Source: Phycisphaerae bacterium
Lineage (GTDB): Bacteria > Planctomycetota > Phycisphaerae > UBA1845
Assembly (NCBI GenBank): GCA_029260015.1
Contig: JAJDEB010000036.1
Span: 778,554 to 842,553 of the forward strand
DNA length: 64,000 nucleotides
Direction: 5' to 3'
Part shown: positions 14,679-63,160 of the stretch, piece after piece
Numbering within the stretch: position 1 is the stretch's first letter
Layout: every line of letters begins with the position of its first letter
Position numbers and translations under genes: made by a program
The notes under the pieces: model-generated
Database searches by the model: none
Told to the model about the DNA's origin: nothing
What the model saw: only the letters and a program-made list of their open reading frames with translations

Positions 14679-14741
14679 GTAGGGTGGGCCGTGCCCACCG
14701 CCATTTGCGATTTACGGATTGGTGGGCACGGCCCACCCTAC
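14679..14741. repeat. REP-like inverted pair, family A (GTAGGGTGGGCCGTGCCCACC)
   Basis: GTAGGGTGGGCCGTGCCCACC...GGTGGGCACGGCCCACCCTAC, between convergent PilZ and der genes. Confidence 0.9.
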
Positions 14742-16182: not shown

Positions 16183-16245
16183 GTAGGTCGGGTCATCGAC
16201 CCGACAGAATTGCTCGACGCATGTCGGGTCGATGACCCGACCTAC
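16183..16245. repeat. REP-like inverted pair, family C (GTAGGTCGGGTCATCGACCCGAC)
   Basis: GTAGGTCGGGTCATCGACCCGAC...GTCGGGTCGATGACCCGACCTAC. Confidence 0.9.
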
Positions 16246-17653: not shown

Positions 17654-17711
17654 GTAGGGTCCGCTGTGCGGACCGATTAGGAACAACAATGGTCCGCACA
17701 GCGGCTCCTAC
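17654..17711. repeat. REP-like inverted pair, family B (GTAGGGTCCGCTGTGCGGACC)
   Basis: GTAGGGTCCGCTGTGCGGACC...GGTCCGCACAGCGGCTCCTAC. Confidence 0.9.
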
Positions 17712-17969: not shown

Positions 17970-17990
17970 GTAGGGTCCGCTGTGCGGACC
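17970..17990 (+). repeat. Single REP arm, family B, directly upstream of the RAYT gene
   Basis: GTAGGGTCCGCTGTGCGGACC, exact match to the arm at 18582. Confidence 0.88.
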
Positions 17991-18009: not shown

Positions 18010-18585
18010 ATGCCGAACTACCACCGCGCGATCGTTCCTGGCGGAACATTCTTCTTCACCCTTGTGACAGAACGGCGCGCGCGAATCCTCTGCGATCCAT
18101 TCGCTCGACAATGCTTGCGCAAAGCAATCCAAGCGACGCAAGAGCGATGGCCATTTGAGATTGACGCAATCGTTCTGCTGCCCGACCACTTGCACACGAT
18201 TTGGACGCTGCCCGACGACGACCACGATTTCTCACGCCGCTGGGCCTTCTTGAAAAAAACATTCACACGATCATGGTTGGCTGTTGGCGGGCGCGAACAA
18301 CCGACCAGCACAAGCCGCGAAAAGAACCGACGACGCGGCATCTGGCAACGCCGATTCTGGGAACGGACGATACGAGATGAAAAGGAATTCGAACGGTATT
18401 GCGATTACATTCATCACAATCCGGTCAAGCATGGGTTGGTGACGTGCCCGCATGCATGGGAGTTTTCGAGTTTTCATCGTTTTGTTTGTGATGGATTTTA
18501 CGAACAGAATTGGCAATGCGTTTGCAATAAGCGCAAACCAACGCCACTAGATTTCGACGATTTGAGTGATACGGTTGGCGAGTAG
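18010..18585 (+). mobile_element. REP-associated tyrosine transposase (RAYT, Y1/HUH transposase) coding sequence
   Basis: HUH-type motif LLPDHLHTIWTLP, catalytic-Tyr helix FERYCDYIHHNPVKHGLV, WQRRFWERTIRDEKE; bracketed by family B REPs. Confidence 0.92.
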
Positions 18586-18663
18586 GGTCCGCTGTGCGGA
18601 CCGTCGTTGGGCATCGTACATTTGATTCGCAATGAACGTTTCGGTCCGCACAGCGGACCCTAC
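18582..18663. repeat. REP inverted pair, family B, between convergent RAYT and CPBP genes
   Basis: GTAGGGTCCGCTGTGCGGACC...GGTCCGCACAGCGGACCCTAC; outer GTAG/CTAC overlap the stop codons of both flanking genes. Confidence 0.93.
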
Positions 18664-19556
18664 ATTGCCAGCGTCACCCACAACAACGTCTTCGCGTTGA
18701 ACAGCGCGTGCGCGATGATCGGTCCTACCAGCGAGCCTCTTCTTTCGTAGATGATTCCCAGGATGATGCCGAATGCGGTGATGGCTGGGATGACTTGCGG
18801 CAGGTCGGCGTGGGCCATGCCGAATAGCAGGCTTGCTGCTACGATCGCCATCCAGCGGCTTGATAGCCATTTGCTTAGCAGCGTTTGCAGGATTCCGCGG
18901 AAGAAAAACTCTTCGGCGATTGGAGTGATGATTGCTGCGCCGGTCCACATCAGCGTGCTCATCCATCCCGGTTGATCGGGCGAGGTCATCAGACCTATTA
19001 CGCGATGGCCGGGAAACTGATGCTCCGGATCGAAATAGACGATCAACCACTGCGTTGCGAATAAAATTCCCTGGCAAATCGCTATCGCAGCGAGTGCGCC
19101 GAACAGCCCCGCCAATGCGTCACCTCCGATGCGCTTCTGGCCCAGGACGAATGTGTTACCGGGACGGCTGACAAACTTCCTGCCGACCCAATATGCGGCG
19201 AACAGCGCACAAACCGTGCCCGTATTCTGCGCCAATGCGAGGACGGCATGCACATGCGGGTCGTCGGTGTTCTTGAGGTCGATGCCTTCGTACATGCGGC
19301 TAAACAGCGTCACGGCGAGCGATTGACCGATGGCTAGGACCAGTATCGGCAGGAGCAACATCTCAACCGGAATGCGATCGCTGCGTGCTGGGGCGAACGC
19401 GACGAGGGGGCTGGCTTGGCGACTGCGGATCAGTTGAACGAGCAGCCAAAGCACCACCGCACTGCCGAACCCGATCAGCACCCAATCGACGCGATCGAGA
19501 ATCAGCTTCATATCCGCCAACAGATGCATTGAATTGAACTTGAATTCTGCGTTCAC
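18660..19556 (-). CDS. CPBP family intramembrane metalloprotease (Abi/CAAX-protease-like)
   Basis: PIAEEFFFRGILQTLL (EExxxR), LLFGMAHADLPQ (FxxxH), IIAHALFNAKT (HxxxN). Confidence 0.88.
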   Translation of the reverse strand: MNAEFKFNSMHLLADMKLILDRVDWVLIGFGSAVVLWLLVQLIRSRQASPLVAFAPARSDRIPVEMLLLPILVLAIGQSLAVTLFSRMYEGIDLKNTDDPHVHAVLALAQNTGTVCALFAAYWVGRKFVSRPGNTFVLGQKRIGGDALAGLFGALAAIAICQGILFATQWLIVYFDPEHQFPGHRVIGLMTSPDQPGWMSTLMWTGAAIITPIAEEFFFRGILQTLLSKWLSSRWMAIVAASLLFGMAHADLPQVIPAITAFGIILGIIYERRGSLVGPIIAHALFNAKTLLWVTLAM

Positions 19557-20611: not shown

Positions 20612-20632
20612 GGTGGGCACGACCCACCCTAC
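20612..20632 (-). repeat. Single family A REP arm abutting the family D element
   Basis: GGTGGGCACGACCCACCCTAC (complement GTAGGGTGGGTCGTGCCCACC). Confidence 0.85.
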
Positions 20633-21735
20633 GCGCTGGTAATCATCTTAGCGGCGCGTTTTACTTCTTCGTCGGTAGTGTGGCGTCCGAGGCTGAAACG
20701 CACCGTACCCAGCGCCAATTCCTGTGACACGCCCATCGCCGAGAGCACCGGCGACACGAACGGTTTATCGCCATGACAAGCCGCCCCCGCACTCGCGCAG
20801 ATGTCCGGCGCATTGGCTAAAACTTCTGCACCAATCTTCCCGCGAAACGCTGCGCTTAACGTTCCGGGTAGTCGCAGTGTGGGGTGGCCATGAAAGACCA
20901 CGCCATCGCCCAATTCATTTTGCAGCCTTTCTTGCAAGGTGTCGCGCTGCATCCGCGTCTTGTCACCCGACCGATCGGCTTGCACCAATTCTGCGGCTTT
21001 GCCCAATGCGACAACATTCGCCACTGGTTCCGTTCCTGCTCTGCGGCCCATTTCGTGACCGGCACCGTGAATGAGCGGTTCTAGCGTGATGCCTTCGCGA
21101 ATGAACATAGCCCCGATGCCCTGCGGCGCGTAGCACTTGTGGCCGGCCAGCGTGAGCAGATCGACGCCCAACTCGCGGGCATTGACGGGGATCTTGCCGA
21201 CGGCTTGTGCGGCATCGGTGTGCATCCATGCGCCGGCGTCGCGAGCGATCTTGGCGATGTCGGCGATCGGTTGAATCGTGCCGACCTCGTTGTTGGCCAG
21301 CATGATCGACACCAATATCGTGTCGGGTCGAATCGCCGCTCGGACGTCATCGGGATCGACCATACAAGTCGAGTCTACACCAACGCGGGTGATTTCAAAT
21401 CCGTGTTTTTCGAGAAACGCGCAGGCGTTCAGGATTGCCGGATGTTCGACAACGGACGTGACAATGTGCCGTCCTTTACCCATTCGGGCCCATGCCGCAC
21501 CTTTGATCGCGTGGTTGCACCCTTCCGATCCGCCGGAATTGAAGATGATCTCGCCGGTATCTACACCCAGCATCGATGCCACATGCAACCGCGCGGTATC
21601 GACAGCCAACCGCATCGCCCTGCCCGGTGCATGTGGACTCGATGGATTGCCGTGATGCTCGCAAAGATAAGGCGTCATCGCTTCGGCGACGGCTGGGTCG
21701 ATTGGGGTCGATGAATTGTGATCGAAGTAGATCAA
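20629..21735 (-). CDS. Cysteine desulfurase (NifS/IscS family)
   Basis: IYFDHNSSTPIDPAV, NSGGSEGCNHAIKG, LTLAGHKCYAPQGIGAMFI (PLP lysine), RAGTEPVANVVALGKAA. Confidence 0.94.
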   Translation of the reverse strand: MIYFDHNSSTPIDPAVAEAMTPYLCEHHGNPSSPHAPGRAMRLAVDTARLHVASMLGVDTGEIIFNSGGSEGCNHAIKGAAWARMGKGRHIVTSVVEHPAILNACAFLEKHGFEITRVGVDSTCMVDPDDVRAAIRPDTILVSIMLANNEVGTIQPIADIAKIARDAGAWMHTDAAQAVGKIPVNARELGVDLLTLAGHKCYAPQGIGAMFIREGITLEPLIHGAGHEMGRRAGTEPVANVVALGKAAELVQADRSGDKTRMQRDTLQERLQNELGDGVVFHGHPTLRLPGTLSAAFRGKIGAEVLANAPDICASAGAACHGDKPFVSPVLSAMGVSQELALGTVRFSLGRHTTDEEVKRAAKMITSA

Positions 21736-23141: not shown

Positions 23142-23206
23142 GTAGGGTGGGCCGTGCCCACCAAGTTTTTCGTAATTCAAACGGCGGTGGGCACGGCCCA
23201 CCCTAC
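23142..23206. repeat. REP inverted pair, family A, in the nusB-ribH gap
   Basis: GTAGGGTGGGCCGTGCCCACC...GGTGGGCACGGCCCACCCTAC. Confidence 0.9.
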
Positions 23207-31717: not shown

Positions 31718-31782
31718 GTAGGGTGGGCCGTGCCCACCGCCGTTTGAACGTTTTACGGATTGGTGGGCACGGCCCACCCTAC
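31718..31782. repeat. REP inverted pair, family A
   Basis: GTAGGGTGGGCCGTGCCCACC...GGTGGGCACGGCCCACCCTAC. Confidence 0.92.
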
Positions 31783-32576
31783 TTCCTTACAGCGGCTATA
31801 AATGCGTCAGCCAGCGCTCGATCGACCGGCTTTCTGATATCGCCATTCGGTTTCAACGCCGACCCAACGATCGCACCGTCCACCATCGAAAGTAATTTCG
31901 CAATCGTTTCCTTGGTCGCTCCGCTGCCGATGTACACGAGTTTGTCGGGTACCGCACCTTTGACTCGGGTTAGATCCTCTTGGTCGACAGCCCGTCCCGT
32001 CGTCGAGCCCGAAACGATGATCGCATCGGCCTGACCACGATACGCCGTCTCCTCAGCCGCCAGCGCGATGTCGGGTTGATTCACGCAAATCGCGTGCTTC
32101 ACATGAACGTCAGCCAGAATCCGCACGTTCGGACAAAGCGCCGCACGATCGCGCAACGTCTGGTGGGCATCGCCTTCGATCATTCCTTGATCGGTCGCTG
32201 CCACCCCCGTCAAGACATTCACACGAATAAACGCCGCGCCAACCGCAGCCGCAATGCCCAACGCACTTCGCGCATCGTTACGCAAACAGTTCACACCGAT
32301 CGGCAGTTTTGTTTCCTTACAAATTTCGCGAATGATGACCGCCATCGCAGCCACCGTTTCGGGAGCAATCGCCCCACTCGTAAACGGCGCATCCCCGAAA
32401 TTCTCAACGATGATCCCACCGAACCCGGCGGCGGTCAGCGTTTGCGCATCGCGCATGGCATGCCCGAAGATATCATCCAGGCTCAACACCGAACCCGGAC
32501 TTCCGGGAAGTGCCGGCAGATGAACCATTCCAATCAGTTTGGGTAGCGGCGTTTGCGTTTCAGACATGTCGGGCAA
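31779..32576 (-). CDS. BtpA/SgcQ family protein
   Basis: KLIGMVHLPALPGSPG, GFGGIIVENFGDAPF, PIGVNCLRNDARSALGIAAAVGAAFIRVNVLTG. Confidence 0.9.
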   Translation of the reverse strand: MPDMSETQTPLPKLIGMVHLPALPGSPGSVLSLDDIFGHAMRDAQTLTAAGFGGIIVENFGDAPFTSGAIAPETVAAMAVIIREICKETKLPIGVNCLRNDARSALGIAAAVGAAFIRVNVLTGVAATDQGMIEGDAHQTLRDRAALCPNVRILADVHVKHAICVNQPDIALAAEETAYRGQADAIIVSGSTTGRAVDQEDLTRVKGAVPDKLVYIGSGATKETIAKLLSMVDGAIVGSALKPNGDIRKPVDRALADAFIAAVRK

Positions 32577-54844: not shown

Positions 54845-54909
54845 GTAGGGTGGGCCGTGCCCACCAATTTGTGCGCCTTGCTGACGACGGTGGGCACGGC
54901 CTACCCTAC
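54845..54909. repeat. REP inverted pair, family A, upstream of lipA
   Basis: GTAGGGTGGGCCGTGCCCACC...GGTGGGCACGGCCTACCCTAC. Confidence 0.9.
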
Positions 54910-61035: not shown

Positions 61036-63099
61036 TTGATGTTTCTGAATTCCAAACAGACAAAAATTCTTTGCATCACTGCTGTCATTGTGGGGACAAC
61101 CATGAGTGCGACGCCGTCTTTAGGAGAACCGCATCCGTTTTCGATCCACGACATGCTGGCGATGGAGCGCATCGGTGGCATCAATGTTTCACCAGACGCA
61201 AAGCGCGTGGCCTTTACCCGCCGCGTGACCGACGTCGAAGCCAATAAATCGCACACCGACATCTGGCTCGTCAATGTCGATGGCAGCGGCATGCGTCGCC
61301 TGACCTCGCACGAATCGAGCAGCAGCAGTCCGAAATGGTCGTCCGATGGGACTACGATTTTCTTTCTCACGTCTCGCAAGGAATCGTCGCAGGTCTGGCG
61401 GATTGCCGTCGATGGCGGTGAGGCTGTCCAGGTGACTGACCTCCCGCTCGATGTATCCGGGTTCGCCGTGTCGCCTGATGCAACCCACTTGGCTGTCAGC
61501 ATGGACGTCTATCCCGATTCCGACTCGCCAGCTGACACCAAAAAACGCCTCGACGAAAAAAGCGAAAGTAAATCGACGGGGATGATTTACGACCAACTGT
61601 TCATCCGCCATTGGGATCATTGGAAAGATGGCCGGCGGTCGCATGTGTTTGTTGTTCCGGTCAAAGGTGGCGACCCGGTCGATGTAATGAAAGGGATGGA
61701 TGCAGACTGCCCCGCAAAACCCTTCGGGGGCGATGAAGACTTCACGTTTTCCCCGGATGGCAAGTCGATCGTTTTCTCAGCCCGCGATGCCGGACGAGAG
61801 GAAGCCTGGTCCACCAACTTCGACTTGTTCGTATCGCCGATTGACGGATCGAGCAAACCCAAATCAATCACTACCGACAACCTCGCGTGGGACACGCTCC
61901 CGGTGTTCTCGCCCGATGGCAAGACCCTCGCCTACCTCGCCATGGAAAAACCTGGATATGAATCGGATCGGTTCAGAATTGTGCTCAAGGATTGGGCATC
62001 GGGTCAGAAAAAAAATCTAACCGAAAAATGGGATCGCTCAGCCGGAGGCATCGTTTGGGCGGCTGACGGTGCAACCATCTACACCACCGCAGCCAACCTC
62101 GGACAGCGTTCGCTATTTGGCATCGACACCAACACCGGACAAGTAGCCACCATCCTTCACGAAGGCAACGTTCGCAGCCCCGGAGTCGCGGGCGACAAGA
62201 TCGTCTTCGGTATGGATCACCTGCGGTCACCGGTGGAACTCTACACAGTGTCACCTGATGGCACTGACATCAAGCAAATCAGCAACGTCAACGGAGAAAA
62301 ACTCGCCAACGCTCAGATGGGCGAAGCGGAACAGTTCACGTTCAAAGGTGCCAACGACGACACGGTTTACGCCTACGTCGTCAAGCCAGCCAACTTCGTC
62401 GAAGGCAAGAAATACCCGATCGCATTTCTGATTCATGGCGGACCGCAAGGCTCATTCGGAAACGACTTTCACTACCGGTGGAATCCGCAGGCCTATGCCG
62501 GGGCTGGCTATGCTGCGATTATGGTGGACTTTCACGGTTCGACCGGTTACGGCCAAGACTTCTGCGATTCAATCAATCAGGACTGGGGTGGTAAACCGCT
62601 TGAAGATTTGCAGAAGGGACTCGCGGCTGCATTGGAACGCTACCCCTGGATGGATGACCAGCGCGTTGCGGCGCTCGGCGCGTCTTACGGTGGGTTCATG
62701 ATCAACTGGATCGCCGGTAATTGGCCCGACCGCTTCAAGTGCCTCGTCAATCACGACGGCAACCTCGACGAGCGGATGGCCTACTACGACACCGAAGAGT
62801 TGTGGTTCCCCGAATGGGATCACGGTGGAACCCCGTGGGACAATCCCGAGAACTTCAGCAAACACAATCCGATCGACCACGTCAAGAATTGGAAAACACC
62901 AATGCTGGTGATTCACGGCGCGCTCGACTACCGCGTCGTCGATACGCAAGGGATGTCAACGTTCACTGCATTGCAGCGGAGAGGAATTCCATCGCGATTC
63001 CTGTACTTCCCGGATGAAAACCACTGGGTGCTCAAGCCGGCCAACAGTATCTTGTGGCATGACACCGTCATCGAATGGTTAGATAAGTGGACAAAGTAG
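61036..63099 (+). CDS. S9 family peptidase (acylaminoacyl/prolyl oligopeptidase type)
   Basis: WD40-like beta-propeller (SPDAKRVAFTRRV, SPDGKSIVFSARD) and alpha/beta hydrolase core ALGASYGGFMINWIAGNWPDRF, HGALDYRVVDTQG, DENHWVLKP. Confidence 0.94.
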   Translation: MMFLNSKQTKILCITAVIVGTTMSATPSLGEPHPFSIHDMLAMERIGGINVSPDAKRVAFTRRVTDVEANKSHTDIWLVNVDGSGMRRLTSHESSSSSPKWSSDGTTIFFLTSRKESSQVWRIAVDGGEAVQVTDLPLDVSGFAVSPDATHLAVSMDVYPDSDSPADTKKRLDEKSESKSTGMIYDQLFIRHWDHWKDGRRSHVFVVPVKGGDPVDVMKGMDADCPAKPFGGDEDFTFSPDGKSIVFSARDAGREEAWSTNFDLFVSPIDGSSKPKSITTDNLAWDTLPVFSPDGKTLAYLAMEKPGYESDRFRIVLKDWASGQKKNLTEKWDRSAGGIVWAADGATIYTTAANLGQRSLFGIDTNTGQVATILHEGNVRSPGVAGDKIVFGMDHLRSPVELYTVSPDGTDIKQISNVNGEKLANAQMGEAEQFTFKGANDDTVYAYVVKPANFVEGKKYPIAFLIHGGPQGSFGNDFHYRWNPQAYAGAGYAAIMVDFHGSTGYGQDFCDSINQDWGGKPLEDLQKGLAAALERYPWMDDQRVAALGASYGGFMINWIAGNWPDRFKCLVNHDGNLDERMAYYDTEELWFPEWDHGGTPWDNPENFSKHNPIDHVKNWKTPMLVIHGALDYRVVDTQGMSTFTALQRRGIPSRFLYFPDENHWVLKPANSILWHDTVIEWLDKWTK

Positions 63100-63160
63100 G
63101 GTGGGCCGTGCCCACCAATCCGTAAATTATGCAAACGACGGTGGGCATGGCCCACCCTAC
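63096..63160. repeat. REP inverted pair, family A
   Basis: GTAGGGTGGGCCGTGCCCACC...GGTGGGCATGGCCCACCCTAC. Confidence 0.92.

Follow-up and report, generated by a model that had tools for sequence, protein, structure and literature searches.

Stop codons supplied by GTAG-headed REP elements in a Phycisphaerae genome and their possible origins

At one intergenic site in the genome of a Phycisphaerae bacterium, the gene for a REP-associated Y1/HUH transposase (RAYT) and a convergent gene for a CPBP-family protease both terminate inside the same REPIN, which consists of two facing family B REPs and a short linker (Table 1). The RAYT coding sequence ends GGC GAG TAG, with the TAG (18583-18585) lying within the GTAG head of the left arm (18582-18585), and on the minus strand the CPBP gene ends GCA ATG TAG, with the TAG (18660-18662) lying within the GTAG of the other arm (18663-18660). 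How do a mobile repeat and a gene come to share a stop codon? A first-pass annotation of the window, the 64-kb stretch of DNA that was analysed, had reported the same overlap for the cysteine desulfurase, BtpA and S9 peptidase genes and had proposed that REPs enter at GTAG sites formed by a TAG stop preceded by G. All five overlaps were confirmed from the sequence, so that 5 of the window's 16 REPs supply a stop codon, and the names of the five genes are backed by Pfam.

Table 1. Coordinates of the focal REPIN, the adjoining genes and other GTAG repeats in the window.
Feature	Position	Strand	Basis or remark
RAYT gene	18010..18585	+	Pfam Y1_Tnp 1.4e-6; sequence; relatives of 46-87% identity
Family B REP, left arm of focal REPIN, head GTAG	18582..18602	+	GTAGGGTCCGCTGTGCGGACC exact
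Linker joining the focal REP arms	18603..18642	.	sequence
Family B REP, right arm of focal REPIN, head GTAG	18643..18663	-	sequence
CPBP-family (Rce1-like) protease gene	18660..19556	-	Pfam Rce1-like 6e-24; ORF list
Family B REP upstream of RAYT, within the RAYT-REP unit	17970..17990	+	repeat family D4; same layout in L101
Further upstream family B REPIN, not at a stop	17654..17711	.	
Single family A REP (one mismatch), gives cysteine desulfurase stop	20612..20632	-	head 20632; gene 20629-21735 (-)
Family A REPIN, minus-strand head is BtpA stop	31718..31782	.	head 31782; gene 31779-32576 (-)
Family A REPIN, plus-strand head is S9 peptidase stop	63096..63160	.	head 63096; gene 61036-63099 (+)
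Family A REPIN flanked by convergent genes, stops 7 and 10 bp away, no overlap	14679..14741	.	
Family A REPIN 26 bp past a stop, no overlap	23142..23206	.	
Family A REPIN, not at a stop	54845..54909	.	
Example of the GTAGGTCGGGTCATCGACCCGAC repeat family	16183-16245		C30:794736-794798

The window lies on contig C30 of a 5.36 Mb genome (G000), and repeats and genes were counted on contigs C30 and C16, which together cover 2.06 Mb or 38% of the genome. In these 2.06 Mb 192 of 197 REP matches start with GTAG, the stems are near invariant, and the head is followed by a short perfect hairpin. There are 83 inverted pairs, along with 26 arms that are single or unpaired, and nearly all REPs are non-coding, stop and start overlaps aside. 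Family A alone has 190 exact copies genome-wide. A GTAG head with a hairpin, many copies, a non-coding location and a majority of inverted pairs are the features by which REPs and REPINs of the GTAG superfamily are recognised, and in the available text of Di Nocera et al. 2013 (PMC3733652) the superfamily is likewise described as having the GTAG head and a short hairpin, occurring in many copies and in inverted pairs, and being located at 3' ends; the two families found here differ in belonging to what is most likely a Phycisphaerales genome. The RAYT translation contains the PDHLH (HUH) and YCDYIHHNP motifs, scores above the Pfam cut-off for Y1_Tnp and is predicted to be catalytic; its nearest named relative is that of Phycisphaerales UBA1845 (87%). 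The gene is flanked by cognate family B REPs, at 17970 and 18582-18663, and the same is true of the RAYT at locus L101. A Y1/HUH transposase amid its own REPs and REP doublets that behave as a unit are equally found in described RAYT/TnpA-REP systems (PMC2817692; Bertels and Rainey 2011, PMC3116915; REPtrons, PMC8266576). The elements of the window are best regarded as ordinary RAYT-mobilised REPINs of the GTAG superfamily, kept at gene 3' ends.

To place these REPs relative to genes we determined how far each REP head lies from the preceding stop on its own strand, using 1,595 genes called with a home-made program based on coding potential and codon statistics. For 31 of the 192 GTAG-headed REPs the TAG is the in-frame stop of a called gene (20 of 147 in family A, 11 of 45 in family B). 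At neighbouring distances of 0-20 bp the density is 2.2 REPs per position, and every other single distance within 60 bp has at most 5, which makes an excess of about 15-fold at one exact phase (Poisson P(>=31) = 5e-25). The excess is real, and it holds after correction for the clustering of REPs at gene 3' ends. A control hairpin repeat of the same genome, without the GTAG head, shows no phase-locking. Only one gene in the 2.06 Mb reads through into a REP, whereas blind insertion into coding ends predicts one in-frame junction for every two read-throughs (31 against 1 observed; binomial 4e-14). Both convergent stops are given by the same REPIN in 3 of 33 cases, about 2.2 being expected for independent ends, and the idea that double-stop REPINs are a special design was rejected. 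Since one insertion reaches only one of two convergent stops, such REPINs need a second process.

REP-stop overlap has been known in outline and in general terms since 2013: the available text of Di Nocera et al. states that the GTAG termini of REPs often supply the stop codon of flanking ORFs (it names TAG opal; TAG is amber), and that text yielded neither statistics nor a comparative test of the origin of the overlap. That brief remark has now become a measured pattern. REPs lying directly after rayt stops were described by Nunvar et al. 2010 (PMC2817692); in some genomes the REP thus begins immediately past the rayt stop, whereas here the stop lies inside the REP head, as it does in 5 of the 79 RAYT loci examined, including L101 and the Botrimarina locus. 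The QMITE2 element of Coxiella (PMC5896051), which carries a GTAG REP, likewise lies at gene 3' ends. The stop of enhC was shifted relative to QMITE2 by an indel, a turnover similar to the one described below, but read-through into QMITE2 also lengthens the protein by 33 residues, and in the present genome read-through is almost absent.

Overlap could arise when a REPIN inserts or at a later time, and the two were compared in four genomes of the same genus (0.87 Mb of relatives' sequence). The genus is about 77% identical at the DNA level and the sole outgroup, G002, is partly sampled, so the polarity of changes is limited; junction alignments at intergenic REPs were mostly uninformative at this identity. 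Orthologs of at least 60% identity were available for 22 of the 31 REP-stopped genes. Many REPINs are old, judging from their presence in several species between an identical pair of genes and often with common flanks. One and the same REPIN stands at d = -4 in G000 and at 0, +3, +4, 17 or 22 bp in sister species; spacing varies in this way at C30:217024, 398704, 520150, 810331 and 839591 and at C16:319056, and the downstream flanks are common at most of these loci. Overlap can therefore arise after insertion, which weakens the proposal that it originates by insertion at GTAG.

Individual junctions document such changes. At C16:319056 three relatives keep the GTAG and a spacer, and the loss in G000 covers precisely the interval from one GTAG to the other. 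At C30:19014 the overlap was gained in G001, where a TGA was lost and the ORF runs 4 codons to the REP TAG; at C30:20769 the native stop is mutated in G000 and the ORF extends to the REP TAG; and at C30:999014 the native stop is deleted in G003 and the REP TAG is used instead. Genes were also released, by a new stop upstream at C16:722806 in G004 and by a 12-bp tandem duplication at C30:216079 in G000. Among the five loci that could be polarised, overlap was gained at three and lost at two. REP-stopped genes share the protein end of their orthologs less often than controls do (27/45 vs 246/308, p = 0.007), with shifts of 1-3 codons.

We favour, with modest confidence, an explanation in which stop capture at kept REPINs, together with some insertion at existing GTAG stops, builds the phase-locked class; it draws on what was observed: phase-locked stops, almost no read-through, spacing that changes between orthologous REPINs, and individual stop-loss and deletion junctions. 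REPINs mobilised by the RAYT would be kept at gene 3' ends, and the spacer between gene and REP would gain and lose bases after insertion. The TAG of the conserved head would be the last possible stop ahead of a very stable hairpin that the ribosome would otherwise have to melt. After loss or deletion of the native stop, the protein would end cleanly before the hairpin only if the junction puts the REP TAG in frame; in-frame junctions would persist, and out-of-frame ones would be translated into the hairpin and purged. We infer this purging by selection because there are 31 in-frame junctions and only one read-through. Some insertions at stops that already read GTAG would add to the class. Both processes probably contribute. 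Two findings count against capture as the sole process: protein ends differ little in position from those of orthologs (-3 to +2 codons, with many offsets of 0), which pure capture does not require, and GTAG stops are enriched in REP-free orthologs, which fits insertion at such stops.

The nearest competitor, which we regard as doubtful, is that REPINs are inserted by the RAYT on the 3' side of a GTAG tetranucleotide retained in the target, which turns the stop of the gene itself into the REP head. It further supposes that coding GTAGs are purged by selection, leaving a GTAG stop as a safe site. Slightly less probable still is the full claim that REPIN transposition uses G-preceded amber stops as safe landing sites with stop and protein unaltered; were it true, a REPIN could enter the very end of a gene, the target keeping its stop and the protein remaining unchanged. 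In REP-free orthologs of REP-stopped genes the stop reads GTAG in 19 of 45 cases, a share akin to that of orthologs of control genes ending in GTAG (13/37) and unlike that of other genes (31/271; 19/45 vs 31/271, p = 3e-6; gene-level permutation p = 5e-4). The share drops to 8/26 (gene-level p = 0.046) when only orthologs without a REP within about 100 bp of the stop are retained, and loss of a REP would equally leave a GTAG behind. REP-free sites comprise 164 GTAG stops and 1,097 intergenic GTAGs, from which 13% of REPs are expected at stops, and 17% (31/181) are found there (p = 0.07). GTAGs at stops nevertheless carry REPs less often than do those 0-60 bp downstream (31:80 REPs vs 157:179 sites, p = 6e-4).

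Empty orthologous loci lend the first-pass proposal of entry at pre-existing GTAG stops partial support. Contig C1 of G003, a genome with few REPs, was included as a source of empty sites and is syntenic only in part. At C30:217024 a GTAG stop without REP is present in both G003 and the outgroup G002, and the G003 sequence past the stop resembles that after the REPIN in G004; at C30:1084360 a GTAG without REP is present in G001 and G004. These comparisons support pre-existing GTAG stops at a part of the loci, best at these two. In contrast, empty relatives have no GTAG at the stop of the CPBP gene (CTAA in G003), the cysteine desulfurase gene (ATGA) or the gene at C16:490724 (GTAA, CTGA and ATAG), and in these relatives the gene ends are displaced by 1-2 codons. 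IS200/IS605 elements such as IS608 resemble the present system in their HUH/Y1 transposase and in hairpins with tetranucleotide guides. IS608 inserts 3' of a tetranucleotide target that lies outside the element; for the REPINs a retained GTAG target is putative. For TnpA-REP, GTAG has been described as the guide and recognition motif and cleavage occurs at CT (PMC8266576); a role of GTAG as target therefore does not follow from the literature. Overlap of a REP with a stop is by itself no evidence of a target site.

The two stops of the focal REPIN appear to have different histories. At L101 the same RAYT unit adjoins the same CPBP gene and the RAYT also terminates in the REP, in the same manner as in the window; GGCGAGTAGGGTCC is common to the window, L101 and Botrimarina L110. 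Because the RAYTs of L101 and L110 end in the REP alike, the RAYT stop is, on this comparative reading, inherited along with the RAYT-REP unit. The CPBP gene of L101 ends ...ACT AGT TAG, 5 bp ahead of the same REP and about 6 codons beyond the end in G000, and in G003 it ends with TAA 2 codons later than in G000. For the CPBP stop of the window, later capture through a change beside the REP is therefore the best reading. At L110, from Botrimarina colliarenosi, the RAYT end and family B REP are identical to those of the window over GGCGAGTAGGGTCCGCTGTGCGGACC while the protein is only 53% identical, which suggests either strong co-conservation of the rayt end with the REP or transfer. The neighbouring genes of the RAYT in G000 lie about 44 kb apart in G003 (G003:C1:193267-237116), and this stretch contains a partial second CPBP copy (194980-195230).

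That the REP hairpin at the stop is selected for tuning translation termination or mRNA 3'-end stability seems improbable. The REPIN hairpin is indeed very stable (the whole focal element folds at -58.6 kcal/mol, z -11.3), and, according to work cited in the available text of PMC12306157, ribosome stalling and reduced translation are reported for E. coli REPs at most 15 nt from a stop. A function at the stop is at odds with the under-use of stop GTAGs relative to those just downstream and with the gain and loss of overlap between sister species, and the TAGs of REPs 0-60 bp downstream of genes are not enriched in frame as backup stops would be (31/80 vs 1/3, p = 0.34). Least probable by a narrow step, and already disfavoured, is blind insertion anywhere near gene ends, with in-frame hits in the last codons truncating the gene and supplying its stop: a few genes do end 1-2 codons before all relatives (C16:490724, C30:398704, cysteine desulfurase), but at 2.2 REPs per bp truncations reaching about 14 codons would be required to account for the 31 cases, 0 of 61 orthologs is longer by more than 2 codons, and read-through, expected twice as often as in-frame junctions, was seen once.

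If capture operates as we propose, the REP head would serve as a spare stop that genes adopt while the spacer erodes, and a repeat could thereby reshape protein ends; REPINs would then act as agents of C-terminal evolution. The pattern also suggests how stable hairpins can sit so near genes and yet stay untranslated.

Several further observations concern the repeats and transposases of this genome. A second RAYT (G000 C30:903767-904135, minus strand) lies between inverted family A REPs, has a TGA stop outside the REP and is probably the cognate transposase of family A. A Y1 transposase gene at C16:644518-644778 (minus strand) is bounded not by REPs but by a longer inverted repeat, GGGTGCCCCGCCCTTCAGGGTGGGGGACTGAC, and resembles the TIR-associated transposases described in the available text of PMC3733652. 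A further GTAG repeat family, GTAGGTCGGGTCATCGACCCGAC, has about 34 copies in C30 and C16, 3 of them at a stop. G002 shows another REP head (GTAGGGTGCGTCC...), which has one copy in the 2.06 Mb of G000. In 81% of off-stop family A REPs GTAG is preceded by a pyrimidine, vs 56% at background intergenic GTAGs. Among the 1,595 called genes TAG is the commonest stop at 55% G+C (TAG 587, TGA 529, TAA 479), and REPs contribute only slightly to this preference.
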